DNA from: Caproicibacterium sp. BJN0003
GTDB taxonomy: Bacteria > Bacillota > Clostridia > Oscillospirales > Acutalibacteraceae
Assembly: GCF_026314295.1 (NCBI RefSeq)
Contig: NZ_CP111108.1
Coordinates: 62,001 to 126,000, forward strand
Reading direction: 5' to 3'
Length of the DNA: 64,000 nt
Below the pieces are notes generated by a model, which was not told where the DNA came from, did no database searches, and saw nothing but the letters and a program-made list of their open reading frames with translations. The translations under genes were made by a program, and so were the position numbers. Below, in pieces: positions 97 through 48,718 of this stretch (positions are counted from its first letter, which is position 1; each line of letters starts with the position of its first letter).

Positions 97-1120
97 TCGG
101 TCTTATCGGCCCGATACATACGAATCCCGTTCTTCATCAAAGCGAAAAAAGATGCCGATTTCAGCGGGCAGAGCAGTGCTTTTAACGCTTTCAATTTTGT
201 TTGTTGTATTGGGAACCATTACTGTGGTTGCTTACCAGTATATGTTTGCACCACTTACCGTTAAGGCGATTGACCGCAGTGCTTCGGCATTGGGCATTGC
301 CTCAAATGCGCAGGACGATATGAAAGAAACCGGTGTGACTAATATCGCTTTATTTGGTGTGGATTCCAGAGACGAAAGCTCCGACGATGGCCGTTCAGAT
401 TCGATGATCATTCTCTCCATCGATAAAACACATTCTAAAGTGAAACTAACCTCCATTTTACGCGATAGCTATGTGCCGATTGATGGTCATGGAAAAGAGA
501 AAATTACGCATGCTTATGCTTATGGCGGGGCTCCTCTTGCAATTCGCACTTTAAATGAGAATTACAATATGGATATTCAGGATTATGTGACAGTTAATTT
601 TGCACAATTTGCGGATCTGATTGATTCCGTCGGTGGAATTGATATGGATATCTCTGATACCGAAATGAAGGAAATGAATGATGTAATCTGGGGTTCAGAA
701 ACCGAACAGGAGAGAAATACTCAGATGATTAAAACAACAGGTCAACAGCATTTAAACGGCAATCAGGCAGTTGTTTATGCTCGAATCCGTGAAGATGACA
801 GCGATAATGCCCGTGCAGACCGTCAGCAAAAAGTGCTCGGCTATCTTTTGGACAAAGTAGAAGCAATGCCTATGACGGAATATCCAGCGCTGGTGCGCAC
901 CGCTATGGGAATGTGCGAGACAAGTCTTTCTCAGGATACCATTTTGAGTTATGTGCCATTCTTGGGCAGTAAACCGTCGTTAGAGAAAATTACAGTCCCA
1001 GATATTAAGTATGAGACTGATGTACAGTCTGGTATTTATGGGGATGCCGGATGGGTTTGGCGCTATAATTTGAGCAATGCCGGCAAACGAATTCGTTCTT
1101 TTATTTATAACGAGACATAA
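77..1120 (+). CDS. LytR-CpsA-Psr (LCP) family cell-wall glycopolymer ligase
   Basis: LCP proteins transfer teichoic-acid-like or other glycopolymers from a lipid carrier to peptidoglycan on the outer face of the membrane. The protein (347 residues from this start) has a basic, Ser/Arg-rich cytoplasmic N-terminus and one membrane segment at about residues 31-55. The LCP domain follows, with the arginine/aspartate signatures LFGVDSRD, RSDSMIILS and TSILRDSYVPI, and later VVYARIREDD and RADRQQKVL. I prefer the ATG at 77, because AAGGTG at 65-70 is a well-spaced ribosome binding site; an ATG at 56 in the same frame lacks one. A strong terminator follows at 1131. The glycopolymer handled cannot be told from sequence. 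Confidence 0.92.
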   Translation: MSQNRNNRSYRPDTYESRSSSKRKKMPISAGRAVLLTLSILFVVLGTITVVAYQYMFAPLTVKAIDRSASALGIASNAQDDMKETGVTNIALFGVDSRDESSDDGRSDSMIILSIDKTHSKVKLTSILRDSYVPIDGHGKEKITHAYAYGGAPLAIRTLNENYNMDIQDYVTVNFAQFADLIDSVGGIDMDISDTEMKEMNDVIWGSETEQERNTQMIKTTGQQHLNGNQAVVYARIREDDSDNARADRQQKVLGYLLDKVEAMPMTEYPALVRTAMGMCETSLSQDTILSYVPFLGSKPSLEKITVPDIKYETDVQSGIYGDAGWVWRYNLSNAGKRIRSFIYNET

Positions 1121-23188: not shown

Positions 23189-25897
23189 TTAAAGTAACTC
23201 TCCATATCTTTTAATATATAATTTTTTGACAATGGTCGCGAGTATCATATAACCGAGAACAATCGCGGAAAGCCATGCAAAATAAATCGGGGGGAGGGGA
23301 GAAAATCCTAAAAATGTTCCCAAAGGAGTAGATACGATCAGTGTTGCCGTTAAAATGGCAAATGCGGTTAGGGACAGCACAGGCGCAGAAGCACGGCTTT
23401 GTAAAAATGGAATTTTAGGGGTGCGGATCATGTGAACCACTAAAGATTGGCTCCACATGGATTCCACAAACCATCCGGATTGAAAAGTCGAGATATAAAG
23501 TAGTTTTAAGGAGGGATCCGTAATTTGAGGAAAGAGCTGTCCGCCGCAGATCATCGGACAAATAACAAAATACATGAGAAGGTAGGTGGCAATATCAAAT
23601 ACCGAGCTGGTAGGTCCAATCCATAGCATGAATTTGCTGATAGAAGAAGCATCCCATTTTCGTGGCTTTTGCAGATATTCCCGATCTACATTGTCCCAAG
23701 GAATCGCGGTGCAGGAAATATCATAAATGAGGTTCAAAAGTAATAGCTGAATCGAGGCCATTGGAAGAAAAGGAAGAAACGCACTGGCGGCCAAAACGGA
23801 AAACATGTTCCCGAAATTAGAAGAAGCAGTCATCTTGATATATTTTATCATGTTTGCGTATGTTTTTCTTCCCTCAATGATTCCGTCTTCCAAAACCATC
23901 AAGTCTTTTTCCAACATAATAACATTTGCAGATTCTTTTGCGATATCTACAGCAGTATCAACAGAAATGCCTACATCGGCAACTTTCATGGCGGCAGCGT
24001 CGTTAATGCCATCCCCCATATATCCGGTGACATGACCATTATCGCGGAAAATTTGGATCACACGTGCTTTCTGAGTGGGAGACAGTTTTGCAAAGACCAT
24101 TGTCTTTTCTGCTTTTTGGGCAAGCTCAGCATCTGTCATATTGTCGAGATCTTTTCCTAAAAGCATACGATTATCAGGAATCCCCACCTGACGGCAGATA
24201 CTGCAGGTAACTTTTTCATTATCTCCGGTCAAAATTTTGACTGCAACACCGTGTTCGTTAAGGGCACGAATTGCTTTGGCAGTTGTCTTTTTCGGTGGAT
24301 CTAAAAAGGCAAGAAATCCAATCAGAACCATGTTGTCTTCGTCTGCTGCTGAAAATTCACCCACTGGGGCAGGATTTGTTTTGTGCGCGACCGCAATCAC
24401 ACGCATGCCGGAGGCGTTTAGTTCGTCAGACTTGGAAATGACGAAGGAACGGACTTCTTTTGTCAGCGGTTTCACTGTCCCGTTAAGTTCAGCATAGGAA
24501 CAGCATTTGAGCATTTCTTCAATGGCACCCTTTGTAATCATTTGCGTTTTTCCGTTTTTATCCGAGACCACAACGCTCATTCTACGACGGTTAAAGTCAA
24601 ATGGGATTTCATCCACTTTTCGATAGTCTTTTTCGATGGGGACAGGCTCTAATTCATTCTGCTTTGAGATAATTGCAAGATCGATTAGATTTTTAAGCCC
24701 TGTTTGAAAGTAGCTGTTTAAAAAAGCATGACGCAGTACACGGGAGTCTTCATTGCCCTCAATATCCAGATGGGACTCTAAAATCACGCGGTCCTGTGTG
24801 AGAGTTCCGGTTTTATCAGTGCAGAGCAAATCGATAGAGCCTAAATTCTGAATGGAATTAAGACTTTTGATGATTACCTTTTTTTGACTCATTGCAACAG
24901 CACCTTTTGCAAGGCAGGTAGTCACAATCATGGGCAGCATTTCCGGTGTAAGACCTACTGCAACGGAAATTGCGAATAAAAATGCTTTGAGCCAGTCACC
25001 CTTTGTAAATCCATTAATGAAAAGGACAATCGGTACCATAACCAGCATAAAACGCAGAAGAACCCATGAAACAGAGTTGACTCCTTTTTCAAAACTGGTT
25101 TTTGGCGGTTTTTCCGTCAGACTTTTTGCGATGCGGCCGAGCATGGTATCATTCCCGGTAGCAACCACAACAGCTTTTGAGCTTCCGCTGATCACGGTGC
25201 TTCCCATAAAAGCAAGATTCGAAATTTCCGTCAAAGAGTTCTGCTCACTTACAGGAGCGCCATATTTTTCAACCGGCTGGCTTTCCCCAGTTAGGGCGGA
25301 TTGGCTGATAAACAGGTCTTTTGCTGAGAGAATCCGCAGATCGGCTGGGATCATATCGCCGGCGGAAAGATAAATTAAGTCGCCGACTACTACATCTTCC
25401 AGGGGAATTTCGTGTTTGCCGGAGTCCTGCCGCTCGACGCAAGTCGTTGTATGGATCATTTTGGAGAGGCTTGCAGCCGCGTTTCCACTTTTCGTTTCTT
25501 GAATAAAGCGCAGGACTCCAGAAATCATGACCATCGTTACGATGATAATGACGGTTGTATAATTTTGCTCACCGGGTTCTGTAAAAAGAATATCAGTAAA
25601 TACCGAGATAATGGCAAGCGTAAATAAAATTGCTGTAAAAGGGTTGATAAAAGCGCTGCAAATTCTTTTAAAAAGAGATTGCTTCTTTTTATGCATGACG
25701 ATGTTGCTGCCAAAAGATTTTCTTGCGGCTTCAACCTCTTCTTCATTTAATCCAGCAGCCTCGGTACCAAGCGTTTGCAAGACTTCTGCTTCATCGTGAG
25801 TTGAAGCAAATAAAAGACGATTTTTAACTTCTGTACTACACGAATCTGCCATAGAAAGATTTTTTTTCGTTAAAACTGTTTTTAGATTTTTTTTCAT
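23189..25897 (-). CDS. mgtA: Magnesium-importing P-type ATPase (MgtA/MgtB, P3B)
   Basis: P3B ATPase that imports Mg2+ at low external magnesium. 902 residues: a cation-ATPase N-terminal domain, TGES in the actuator domain ([14 protein letters not shown]), phosphorylation motif D361-KTGTL, nucleotide-binding KGAIEEML, hinge TGDNEKVTC...[11 protein letters not shown], and ten membrane helices including the FGNMFSVL region typical of MgtA. The start is ATG 25895-25897 with GGAGGT seven bases upstream; the ATG at 25912 overlaps that site. The upstream region holds a promoter, an M-box riboswitch, a terminator and a short leader ORF. The ribosome binding site can pair with CCTCCTTTT in the leader. 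Confidence 0.97.
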
Positions 25898-25905
25898 CGC
25901 TCGTA

Positions 25906-25942
25906 CCTCCATTTTTTCAAATTGACATGTGCTAAAAGGAGG
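25906..25942 (-). promoter_or_regulatory. Hairpin able to mask the mgtA ribosome binding site
   Basis: On the plus strand CCTCC (25906-25910, complement of the mgtA GGAGG) and TTTT (25912-25915) match GGAGG (25938-25942) and AAAA (25934-25937). This gives nine base pairs with one bulge in the RNA. Confidence 0.5.
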
Positions 25943-25963: not shown

Positions 25964-26091
25964 ACGGAGGATCAGCTACAGAGAAGAATGAAATCATGGT
26001 TTGACTTTTTCATGATTTTCATTTGTGATGTAGGCCATCCGTCGGGGACTGTGCCGCTGCTACTCCCAGAGTCCATTCTTCTCACCTCCGT
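25964..26091 (-). promoter_or_regulatory. Long-range stem enclosing the mgtA leader ORF
   Basis: ACGGAGG (25964-25970) is the exact complement of CCTCCGT (26085-26091), and GAGAAGAATG (25981-25990) of CATTCTTCTC (26074-26083). In the RNA this pairs the leader ORF's ribosome binding site and start codon with its own 3' end and the bases just past its stop. A smaller hairpin (AATCATG/CATGATT, 25992-26017) sits inside. Confidence 0.6.
25972..26076 (-). CDS. Putative 34-residue leader peptide of mgtA
   Basis: A short ORF lies between the M-box terminator and mgtA. The ATG (26074-26076) has a near-ideal GGAGGTG five bases upstream, and the TGA stop is at 25972-25974. The 34 residues start [17 protein letters not shown], continue with a Lys/Met-rich middle and end HDFILLCS. 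There is no membrane helix. The start region is complementary to the 3' end of the ORF and to bases past the stop, so translation of the peptide would change the RNA fold ahead of the mgtA ribosome binding site. Leader peptides controlling mgtA are known from enterobacteria (MgtL, Pro-rich), but this sequence is unrelated. I infer a regulatory leader; a short protein with its own role is possible. Confidence 0.6.
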
Positions 26092-26137
26092 TTAAATCAA
26101 AGATTGTTTTCAATTTTTAAAGATGTCAAAACATGCT

Positions 26138-26184
26138 AAAAAATAAAAAGCTCCCATATATTCGGTCAAGAATATATGGGAGTG
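26138..26184 (-). terminator. Terminator of the mgtA M-box riboswitch
   Basis: CTCCCATATATTC (26151-26163) pairs perfectly with GAATATATGGGAG (26170-26182). The minus strand then has CTTTTTATTTTTT. This is the expression platform directly after the aptamer. Confidence 0.9.
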
Positions 26185-26201
26185 TAAAAAAGCACTTCTG
26201 A

Positions 26202-26352
26202 CTTCTTCGTTTGAGCTTTAGCTTTGCAGGGCAGTGAAACTGTATTATGCTACACCTTAGGTTCGATATAGCTTGCTCCAACCTTCTCCATGGTGTCTCC
26301 ACCACTCTGCGGCAACAATCCATATCCCTGCAAAAACCTCACCTACCGAATC
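26202..26352 (-). promoter_or_regulatory. M-box (ykoK) Mg2+ riboswitch aptamer
   Basis: Read on the minus strand, the leader starts GGTAGGTGAGGTTTTTGCAG and contains TTGTTGCCGCAGAG. It ends GCTAAAGCTCAAACGAAGAAG. These are the conserved blocks of the M-box/ykoK family (GGTGAGGC..., GCTGCCGC, GCTAAAGCTC..CGA). M-box RNAs fold when Mg2+ is high and favour the terminator, which here lies immediately downstream. Location upstream of a Mg2+ importer fits. The boundaries are approximate. Confidence 0.9.
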
Positions 26353-26358
26353 TTACTT

Positions 26359-46970: not shown

Positions 46971-48329
46971 TTATACGTGAAGAAGTTGTGCTGCAATCGA
47001 GAAATAAATAATCAAGGAAACCGCATCCACAATCGTCGTAATCAGCGGTGCCGCCATCAGGGCAGGATCCAGATGCAGTGCCTTTGCAATCATTGGCAGT
47101 ACACCACCGATGGATTTTGCCATGATAACGGTGCAGATCATGGCAAGAGATATGGTCAGTGCAATTAAAGGCTGGTCAGGATAAAGAATGATCAGACGAA
47201 TAAAATTGATTGCGCTTAAAATAACGCCCACCATGATACTGACTCGAATTTCTTTCCAGAGAACTTTCCAGAAGTCGTGCATTTGGACTTCTCCAAGTGC
47301 CATGCTGCGAATGATGATGGTACTCGACTGACTGCCGGCATTGCCGCCGGTATCGGTAAGCATCGGGATAAAGGAGACCAGGATCGGCATTGCCGAAAAT
47401 GCAGCCTCGTAGTTATTAAGAATGGACCCGTTAATCATGCCGGAAACCATCAGAATCAGAAGCCATACAATTCGGTTTTTAGCGAGGCGAAAAACGCCGG
47501 TTTTGAGATAGGGCGTCTCTTCTGGCGCCATAGCGCCCATGACCTGCATATCTTCGGTGGCCTCTTGCTCCATGACGTCCATAGCGTCGTCAACGGTGAT
47601 AATGCCTACCAGACGGTTTTCTTTATCGACTACCGGCATGGAAAGAAGGTCGTATTTACTAAAATTATTGGCGACATCTTCTCGATCATCTGTTGTGGTG
47701 GCTTTGATGATATCTTCGTCCATCAGTTCTTCGATCGGACAGTCGTCATTTGAAAGCAATAAATCTTTTACAGTAACAATTCCCTGCAGGATTCGCTGAT
47801 CATCGATCACATAGCAGGTATAAATAGTTTCACTATCTTCTCCTGTACGGCGGATTTTGCGGATGGAATCTTTGACTGTCATATTCCGCCGCAAATCCAT
47901 AAATTCGGCGGTCATAATGCTGCCGGCAGAATTTTCCGGATACTGCAGGAATTTATTGATCAGCGTACGGGTATCTTTAGAAGCGACTTTTAAAACACGT
48001 TTGACCATGTTGGCCGGCAGTTCTTCGACCATATCCACTGCATCGTCAACCGAAAGGTCTTCCAGAATTTCGTGCAGCTCCTGGTCGGTAATGGATTCCA
48101 CCAAATATTGTTGGGTATCCGATTCCAAATTGGAAAAAACTTCGGCTGCTACCTCTTTTGGCAGGGTACGGAATGCAACAATCGATTTTTCAGCCGGTAA
48201 TTTTTCCAACAGTTCAGCAATATCTACTTCGTTTATATCGTCGAGCAGTTTGCGTACGGCTGCAAAGTTGCGCTGGCTTAAAAATTCCAGGAGCTGATTT
48301 TTGAGTTCTTCATTGTTAGAAATGTCCAT
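46971..48329 (-). CDS. mgtE: Magnesium transporter MgtE
   Basis: Mg2+-gated Mg2+ channel. 452 residues: an N-terminal superhelical domain (about 1-130, with LEKLPAEKSIVAFRTLP, LSVDDAVDMVEELPANM) and a CBS pair (about 135-255, SAGSIMTAEFMDL..., GIVTVKDLLLS, GIITVDDAMDVM). The C-terminal pore domain with five helices includes MLTDTGGNAGSQSSTIIIRS. The ATG at 48327-48329 has a GGAGG, but this can fold on CCTCC immediately after it. Upstream lie a terminator and a leader ORF, so expression is probably attenuated. Confidence 0.97.
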   Translation of the reverse strand: MDISNNEELKNQLLEFLSQRNFAAVRKLLDDINEVDIAELLEKLPAEKSIVAFRTLPKEVAAEVFSNLESDTQQYLVESITDQELHEILEDLSVDDAVDMVEELPANMVKRVLKVASKDTRTLINKFLQYPENSAGSIMTAEFMDLRRNMTVKDSIRKIRRTGEDSETIYTCYVIDDQRILQGIVTVKDLLLSNDDCPIEELMDEDIIKATTTDDREDVANNFSKYDLLSMPVVDKENRLVGIITVDDAMDVMEQEATEDMQVMGAMAPEETPYLKTGVFRLAKNRIVWLLILMVSGMINGSILNNYEAAFSAMPILVSFIPMLTDTGGNAGSQSSTIIIRSMALGEVQMHDFWKVLWKEIRVSIMVGVILSAINFIRLIILYPDQPLIALTISLAMICTVIMAKSIGGVLPMIAKALHLDPALMAAPLITTIVDAVSLIIYFSIAAQLLHV

Positions 48330-48332
48330 ATG

Positions 48333-48344
48333 GGAGGTCCCTCC
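48333..48344 (-). promoter_or_regulatory. Self-complementary mgtE ribosome binding site
   Basis: On plus GGAGG-TC-CCTCC. In the RNA, GGAG of the ribosome binding site can pair with CTCC four bases later, masking translation initiation. Confidence 0.45.
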
Positions 48345-48384
48345 TTCGCTTTTTTAAGTAAAGAGACAGAGAACCCCAAACAGC

Positions 48385-48434
48385 GAAAAAATAGCTATGC
48401 GCAAATCACTTTTTAAAAATTGCGCACAGCCATA
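48385..48434 (-). terminator. Leader terminator (attenuator) of mgtE
   Basis: ATAGCTATGCGCAA (48392-48405) pairs along 14 positions with TTGCGCACAGCCAT (48421-48434), two pairs being G-U in the RNA, followed by a minus-strand T run (48387-48392). Confidence 0.85.
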
Positions 48435-48448
48435 ACGAGCCCTTATGG
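48431..48448 (-). promoter_or_regulatory. Candidate antiterminator hairpin of mgtE leader
   Basis: CCATAA (48431-48436) and TTATGG (48443-48448) are exact complements. The first overlaps the outer four bases of the terminator stem (48431-48434), so the two hairpins compete. Confidence 0.5.
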
Positions 48449-48475
48449 AAAACGAACACCAAAGCCGATGATTCA

Positions 48476-48556
48476 TTAAAAAATCAATCGAGCTAAAATG
48501 GTCGTCCATAAAGGAACGTCATCGTCATTTTGGGCGCTTCGGTCATAGATGTCCAC
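48476..48556 (-). CDS. Putative 26-residue leader peptide of mgtE with acidic-Pro stretch
   Basis: GTG at 48554-48556 has a strong AAGGAGGAG seven bases upstream; TAA stop at 48476-48478. The 26 residues begin MDIYDRSAQ, contain NDDDVPLW (residues 10-17) and end ARLIF. Nascent chains with runs of Asp/Glu followed by Pro are known to destabilise translating ribosomes when Mg2+ is low, the mechanism used by enterobacterial MgtL. Placed 28 bases before an antiterminator/terminator pair and upstream of a Mg2+ transporter, this ORF looks like a Mg2+-sensing leader. No M-box is seen here. The sensing role is inference. Confidence 0.62.
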   Translation of the reverse strand: MDIYDRSAQNDDDVPLWTTILARLIF

Positions 48557-48608
48557 TTGGTGCTCCTCCTTATTTTAAATTTTTTTGAATCTCTGCATGA
48601 ACACTCTT

Positions 48609-48617
48609 ATTATAACA
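48609..48617 (-). promoter_or_regulatory. Extended -10 promoter of mgtE leader
   Basis: On the minus strand TGT followed by perfect TATAAT (plus 48609-48614); the -35 region is weak. The leader transcript would be about 270 bases. Confidence 0.6.
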
Positions 48618-48718
48618 CACAGTCTTTTAAAATGTATATAAAATCGTGCAAAATTTTAAAAAAACAGAGTTGAGAAAAGCAGAATTTTGAAAAGTTGATT
48701 TCTTTCTGAAGACGGCTG

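Follow-up and report, generated by a model that had tools for sequence, protein, structure and literature searches.

Does the short open reading frame (ORF) that separates a promoter-like site from the magnesium transporter gene mgtE in Caproicibacterium sp. BJN0003 control this gene, and could it do so in the manner of MgtL, the leader peptide of enterobacterial mgtA? Mg2+-sensing leader peptides are established for enterobacterial mgtA and mgtCBR, and an initial annotation of this locus had proposed a leader ORF that would control mgtE in a comparable way. In this study, we followed up the proposal by computation. The window is the whole stretch of DNA that was analysed (64,000 nucleotides, contig NZ_CP111108.1, positions 62,001 to 126,000), and positions are counted from its first letter.

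The mgtE leader and its conservation within the genus

The following features were located at the mgtE locus of the window:

48609–48638, minus strand: promoter-like site with extended −10 (TATACA N18 TATAAT, TG before the −10), a consensus match only
48476–48556, minus strand: mgtE leader ORF, 26 amino acids (MDIYDRSAQNDDDVPLWTTILARLIF), CGA at codons 6 and 23; congeneric conservation and accepted relatives
48529–48549, minus strand: putative 5' arm of the pairing P1, about leader codons 3–10, limits approximate; minimum-energy fold
48430–48448, minus strand: CCATAA/TTATGG hairpin (arms 48448–48443 and 48435–48430), overlapping the 5' arm of the terminator; read from the sequence
48386–48430, minus strand: intrinsic-terminator-like hairpin with T run; −16.8 kcal/mol
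48361–48380, minus strand: putative 3' arm of P1, pyrimidine-rich, before the mgtE Shine-Dalgarno (SD) region, limits approximate; fold and analogy with relatives
48332–48347, minus strand: mgtE SD region, self-complementary CCTCCC (GGAGGGACCTCCC at 48344–48332); read from the sequence
46971–48329, minus strand: mgtE, magnesium transporter; TIGR00400, 483.1 bits (cut-off 232.75)

A short ORF, predicted to be translated and equipped with its own ribosome binding site, thus precedes a Mg2+ transporter gene, which is the single mgtE match in its 2.46-Mb genome. The ORF starts with GTG at 48556, preceded on the minus strand by the ribosome site AAGGAGGAG, and its 26 codons were obtained by reading as well as by computation. 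Likewise, the extended −10, the strength of the leader ribosome site and the self-complementary ribosome site of mgtE, all described initially, were confirmed by reading or computation. The terminator-like hairpin spans 48430–48394 and is followed by TATTTTTT; a consensus terminator scan allowing loops of 3–8 nucleotides did not list it. The fold of the region 48325–48610 is more stable than those of 200 dinucleotide shuffles (z = −3.63). A riboswitch at the mgtE leader was considered and rejected, since an Rfam search of the window gave no match there and placed the M-box (RF00380) at 26195–26357 only.

Four of the eleven genomes of the genus carry mgtE. Among these four, the 81-nt leader ORF differs by 0–2 substitutions, whereas mgtE third positions differ at 61–119 of 452, which implies constraint on both the peptide and the synonymous sites of the ORF. 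The genus genomes G001, G002 and G010 gave neither an mgtE match nor a strong hit of the leader model R1 introduced below. The CCATAA/TTATGG hairpin overlapping the terminator stem and T run, which had been proposed to compete with the terminator, is present as described, but in L004, one of the four genomes, its CCATAA arm has the sequence AAATAA. The terminator pairing is kept in L003 and L004 by one-sided changes, as judged by eye, and the putative contest between the two hairpins was seen in the four mgtE-bearing genomes of this genus, in altered form in one of them.

A leader family upstream of mgtE

We examined the upstream regions of 134 mgtE loci from the family and order (54 with flanks and 80 fetched stretches), and 100 of them yielded a related short ORF that we accepted, in 18 cases by eye at low score; the remaining 34 gave no accepted leader. 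This comparison with related mgtE upstream regions, the check suggested at the outset, together with the congeneric conservation, supports the proposal of a leader ORF placed to control mgtE and shows it to be conserved. Counts for this set rest on the 97 non-redundant leaders among the 100; near-copies (L002–L004) were left out, and L005 (a partial match, not mgtE) and L097 (wrong ORF taken, the likely leader there being LDNGDANPRS) were dropped.

Candidates were scored with a start-anchored matrix that begins 18 nt upstream of the start codon and extends through codon 9; 36 leaders picked by hand from this set served as training data. The best score on the opposite strand, taken as null, was 10.4, which 76 of the 97 leaders exceed, including 41 of the 61 outside the training set; 18 of the 97, accepted by eye, score less than 10 and thus below the null maximum. 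In a name-linked scan, from which L254 and L283 were dropped as too short, 24 of 78 usable mgtE loci scored at least 12 and none did so on the opposite strand, with leaders found, for example, in Ca. Soleaferrea massiliensis, Hungatella hathewayi WAL-18680 and Clostridium sp. MD294.

The N-terminus typically reads MDAGSSGGAVPRER, MDAGSSTGTVPGRSS, MEGNEGSRTGVPVRLS or MDAGHNNSTKPRSIK. The family is characterised by a Met-Asp/Glu start and a Gly/Ser stretch containing an SD mimic; Pro and CGA-encoded Arg are also frequent. At residue 2, 92/97 leaders have Asp or Glu, a figure that is partly circular because hand-picked candidates had been filtered for D, E, S, G or N at this position and because the matrix includes it. 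Pro occurs within codons 3–18 in 82/97 leaders and Arg within codons 3–20 in 85/97; short Ser runs are common, with up to four Ser in L194. The spacing from the start to Pro and Arg varies by whole codons, and the C-terminal halves vary by eye in length and sequence. It should be noted that stop counts in the three frames (1, 57 and 156) were discarded as evidence, since open frames were a condition of selection and the lack of in-frame stops follows by construction.

The window leader starts MDIYD, with Asp directly after Met. It lacks an EPDP-like acidic-Pro repeat in its first five residues and has an acidic-Pro motif only at residues 11–15. The DDDVP stretch found there had initially been taken as the key element, a view that does not hold family-wide. 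D-x-D-V-P recurs mainly in near relatives, where DSGVP, DSDVP, DKDVS (L032–L034) and DGDVP (L256) are found; its Val-Pro part aligns with the family, while DDD is local. DDDVP was consequently rejected as a family motif, the widely shared part being Val/Ala/Lys-Pro.

A second leader upstream of mgtA

A DNA model of 42 mgtE leaders (R1), built from sequence only and imposing no ORF requirement, was run on 60 relatives. Its best match in the genome of the window is not the mgtE leader, which reaches only E = 0.27, but a second site in the window, embedded in the following features:

26195–26357, minus strand: M-box (ykoK) riboswitch; RF00380, 91.7 bits (gathering threshold 44)
26134–26180, minus strand: terminator-like hairpin with T run, after the M-box; read from the sequence
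25972–26076, minus strand: second leader ORF of the same family, 34 residues, before mgtA; R1 match at 26035–26089, E = 2.4e-5
23189–25912, minus strand: mgtA, Mg2+-translocating P-type ATPase; TIGR01524, 1161.7 bits (cut-off 610.75)

For mgtA, the ribosome site is better placed with respect to the ATG at 25897. M-box, terminator-like hairpin and leader ORF (25972–26357, minus strand) follow one another, so that a single mRNA carries two candidate Mg2+ controls in series.

Across the 60 relatives, R1 gave 20 hits at E < 0.01, of which 19 precede mgtE (12) or mgtA (7). Ten of the 12 mgtE loci belonged to the training set and none of the seven mgtA loci did; the latter hits correspond to ORFs of 34–36 codons. 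An M-box lies upstream of all seven mgtA leaders found in the genus (the window and six other genomes). From 200 genomes of the family, 24 mgtA loci were collected. Fifteen have a leader, nine of these below an M-box (L166, L167, L168–L170, L171 and L173–L175), and one was not assessable (L189, 1 nt upstream). In the remaining eight no leader was found, two of them offering only 179 and 223 nt of upstream sequence, and rescanning of L186 and L188 returned none.

At class level, 292 genomes gave 27 R1 hits in 26 genomes at E ≤ 0.005: 17 before mgtE (two of them distant, 26–27% identity), two before mgtA and eight before neither. At this level R1 is strict: known leaders, such as those in G158 and G245, escaped it. 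Hits lacking mgtE or mgtA on the same strand (L153, L156–L158, L160–L165, L207–L209 and L212–L216) were treated as chance. Judged by these matches, the putative leader family spans other Clostridia and two unrelated Mg2+ transporters, MgtE and MgtA. Its occurrence before the unrelated mgtA, under an M-box, points to a Mg2+ signal.

Near one of the mgtA loci, L175, a 6S RNA match was noted at 712–913 (plus strand).

Leader codons and access to the transporter ribosome site

SD mimics (GGNAGT, GGAGG or GAAGT) occur within the first 60 nt of 63/97 leaders and within the next 60 nt of 9/97, a count that is partly circular as the matrix covers codons 1–9. In aligned groups, the mimic can base-pair with a stretch rich in pyrimidines, for which the true ribosome site is the alternative partner. 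To this pairing (P1) we applied a swap test, in which codons 2–13 of each leader were added to the downstream region of their own locus and compared with the same part taken from up to 12 other loci; L021 (no mgtE start found) and L040 (too far) were left out of the mgtE set, and L167 and other near-copies out of the 16-member mgtA set, in which the mgtA start of L183 may be wrong. The native part raised ln P(SD open) at mgtE by 3.74 on average and the swapped part by 0.22, and native exceeded the swapped mean in 77 of 95 loci (Wilcoxon p = 2e-11), with folding computed at equilibrium and species that are not independent in these statistics. The other 18 loci showed no native advantage. At mgtA, the values were 6.5 for native and 2.2 for swapped leaders, with native ahead in 14 of 16 (p = 1.5e-4). 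An earlier comparison of leader/downstream duplex energies, superseded by this test, gave a mean rank of 0.32 against swapped leaders over 91 loci, which is suggestive only. In addition, the P1 arms covary by eye at 11 mgtA loci (GGCAC/GTGCC, GGTA/TACC, GGAA/TTCC).

Taken individually, the mgtE copy of the window is a weak case. Its leader is undistinctive in the swap test (4.8 vs 3.6, a third of the swaps equalling it), and its SD has little accessibility already in the ribosome-free fold (lnP −11.2). The mgtA leader of the window does somewhat better, with values of 4.7 vs 2.1 and 27% of swaps equalling it.

A ribosome modelled at codons 10–19 closes the transporter ribosome site. With its A-site at codons 12–18, it lowers mean ln P(SD open) by 3.0–3.6, whereas at codons 2–5 or beyond codon 22 the mean hardly falls (92 loci, a profile computed without a swapped control). 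The closing exceeds 2 at 68 of the 92 loci and stays below 2 at 24. Terminator-like sites are found in 68/97 leader regions, compared with 53/194 shuffles, the strongest hairpin lying inside the ORF in 25 cases, across its end in five and after it in 38. The output device thus differs among loci whereas the 5' half of the leader is retained, a pattern resembling that of riboswitches, in which different expression platforms accompany one aptamer.

Proposed mechanism and alternative explanations

Computation supports a conserved ORF, its membership in a family, the association of this family with two Mg2+ transporters and a locus-specific P1 pairing. With some reserve, we lean towards a cis-acting leader-peptide family common to clostridial mgtE and mgtA, which would act as an MgtL-like switch turning transport ON at low Mg2+. 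The first ~13 codons of the leader would double as an anti-anti-SD: left free, they would pair (P1) with the segment that otherwise masks the transporter ribosome site, and the transporter would be expressed, while a ribosome held at about codons 10–19 would block P1, so that the site is masked and/or the terminator forms (OFF). At ample Mg2+, the ribosome would reach and linger on the stretch rich in Pro and CGA-encoded Arg, Pro plus CGA possibly constituting a programmed pause, and transport would be OFF. At low Mg2+, the acidic N-terminus would destabilise ribosomes, and early drop-off would allow P1 to form, turning transport ON. The pause, the drop-off, Mg2+ as the signal and the direction of regulation are what we infer by analogy; the drop-off step is borrowed because of the precedent of MgtL, for which drop-off at an acidic-Pro motif at low Mg2+ is reported to alter the mRNA fold, an effect abolished by changing Glu2 and Asp4 (PMC11282234, in the part of the source available).

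Codon usage bears on whether and how the ORF is read. Within leader codons 2–18, CGA accounts for 89/147 Arg codons, compared with 60/992 in the mgtE coding sequence (50 loci) and 11/107 in the remainder of the leaders; for Ser, AGT accounts for 124/236, compared with 119/1175 in mgtE. Arg directly after Pro is encoded by CGA in 25/26 cases, and the first Arg within four residues of the first Pro in 44/49. In codons 10–20, which lie outside the selection matrix, CGA makes up 62/112 Arg codons and 19/20 of those directly after Pro, and its counts by frame are 62, 3 and 23. The strongest indication that the predicted leader ORF is read comes from this bias towards one frame. The 16 mgtA leaders contain CGA in 14/34 early Arg codons, vs 25/455 in the mgtA coding sequence. 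The CGA preference is less marked among 21 newer leaders (14/37 early Arg, 3/6 for the first Arg near Pro). The mgtE leader of the window has CGA at codons 6 and 23, neither after its Pro.

CGA is generally read by an inosine-34 tRNA-Arg through weak decoding, and this codon could itself be the sensor, with Mg2+-dependent ribosome speed at Pro-x-CGA setting P1 and no need for drop-off. The frame-specific enrichment after Pro fits such a role, as does the Pro-CGA step of E. coli mgtL (CCT CGA at its last Pro-Arg); moreover, base pairing alone was dismissed as an explanation of CGA, since these codons are no more paired than others (0.57 vs 0.59). However, the mgtA leader of the window has no CGA in its first 20 codons and several other leaders lack an early one, the weaker proximity to Pro in the newer set is unfavourable, and the position of CGA shows no significant link to the SD-closing window locus by locus (rho 0.05 and 0.12), so that CGA is not supported as the setter of this window. 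Slower decoding at low Mg2+ would furthermore switch the importer OFF under the P1 model, an unexpected direction, and we regard CGA as sole sensor as rather doubtful. Hardly less doubtful is a combined version, in which the Pro-CGA step would be a Mg2+-responsive element, the weak inosine-adenosine pair and the acidic N-terminus together reading Mg2+ and the decoy SD converting ribosome position into expression.

The same anatomy, with frequent Pro and Arg and common short Ser runs, would also suit a translation-dependent attenuator that responds mainly to another signal, such as the supply of Ser, Arg or Pro aminoacyl-tRNA or the general translation rate, with Mg2+ acting indirectly. The confident hits precede Mg2+ transporter genes, mgtE and mgtA, often under an M-box, which renders this reading unlikely. 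Nor are the leaders rich in codons of an amino acid made by the downstream operon, as in trp- or his-type attenuators, the downstream genes being Mg2+ transporters. A structured RNA of riboswitch type, in which the open frame is incidental and translation irrelevant, would account for the strong nucleotide constraint, including synonymous sites, and for the long-range P1 pairing; it is very unlikely given that CGA is frame-specific outside the selected codons, Pro/Arg spacing shifts by whole codons, the ribosome sites are strong and Rfam gives no match at the mgtE leader. A small protein made from the ORF and acting in trans on the transporter would explain the conserved N-terminus and is barely credible, since the C-terminal halves diverge in length and sequence and the conserved codons overlap the RNA pairing.

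Relation to known systems

The preferred reading, an MgtL-like switch in cis, rests on several likenesses to enterobacterial mgtL: a short ORF between promoter and Mg2+ transporter gene, an acidic residue after Met, Pro followed by a CGA-encoded Arg (in the E. coli codons) and a switch proposed to depend on translation. By analogy, the family would work like MgtL. We nevertheless class it apart, because the window leader has no N-terminal EPDP, intrinsic-terminator-like hairpins and SD masking stand in place of the Rho site that mgtL uses (PMC11282234, available part of the text), and the Mg2+ response is drawn from analogy. The clostridial leader further differs in carrying a decoy SD inside the ORF, in preceding mgtE as well as mgtA, and in its host class.

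Like the M-box, the leader family is associated with Mg2+ transporter genes, and the M-box itself sits upstream of the mgtA leader. The M-box, in contrast, senses Mg2+ by RNA and not by translation, and RF00380 has no match at the mgtE leader. Closer in logic is the M-box-uORF2 arrangement of M. tuberculosis, where an M-box is followed by a conserved small ORF and SD, anti-SD and anti-anti-SD elements; its peptide is reported to be specific to mycobacteria, its control is Rho-dependent and its downstream genes are others (PMC12810186, as far as the available part goes). The mgtE motif of Thioalkalivibrio also lies upstream of mgtE. Unlike the clostridial leader, it is a riboswitch candidate from a single genus, has its SD within a stem and, in the available part of the source, which includes eight uORF candidates, is not described as a leader peptide (PMC11109978).

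A search of titles and abstracts of the open-access literature returned no clostridial mgtE leader peptide, in agreement with the initial statement that no leader of this type was known for MgtE in Clostridia, and the family is apparently both widespread and previously undescribed. If the proposed switch is correct, a family that spans the Clostridia and precedes the genes of two unrelated Mg2+ transporters, in part below an M-box, would turn Mg2+ sensing by the ribosome into a general strategy, and a defined set of elements (decoy SD, anti-SD and SD) together with a specific codon would become testable.

Further observations

Possible Met-Asp/Glu leaders outside the Clostridia were seen at L247 and L293 (Erysipelotrichaceae MAGs) and L282 (Synergistaceae MAG); two of the three have CGA codons and two are low-scoring, in bins that may be mixed. 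At L020 (G036:C52:6546-8576), a 728-residue MgtE frame is present whose N-terminal part is matched several times in tandem. Finally, Tissierella praeacuta has a low-scoring leader, MDSGPVPSC, which is even more MgtL-like, and leaders of the form MDSGPxP or MDSSPxP lie upstream of mgtE at L229, L243, L263, L267, L269, L271 and L273 (Tissierella-type and similar loci), where they have low matrix scores and look nearer to enterobacterial MgtL than to the leaders of Oscillospiraceae.
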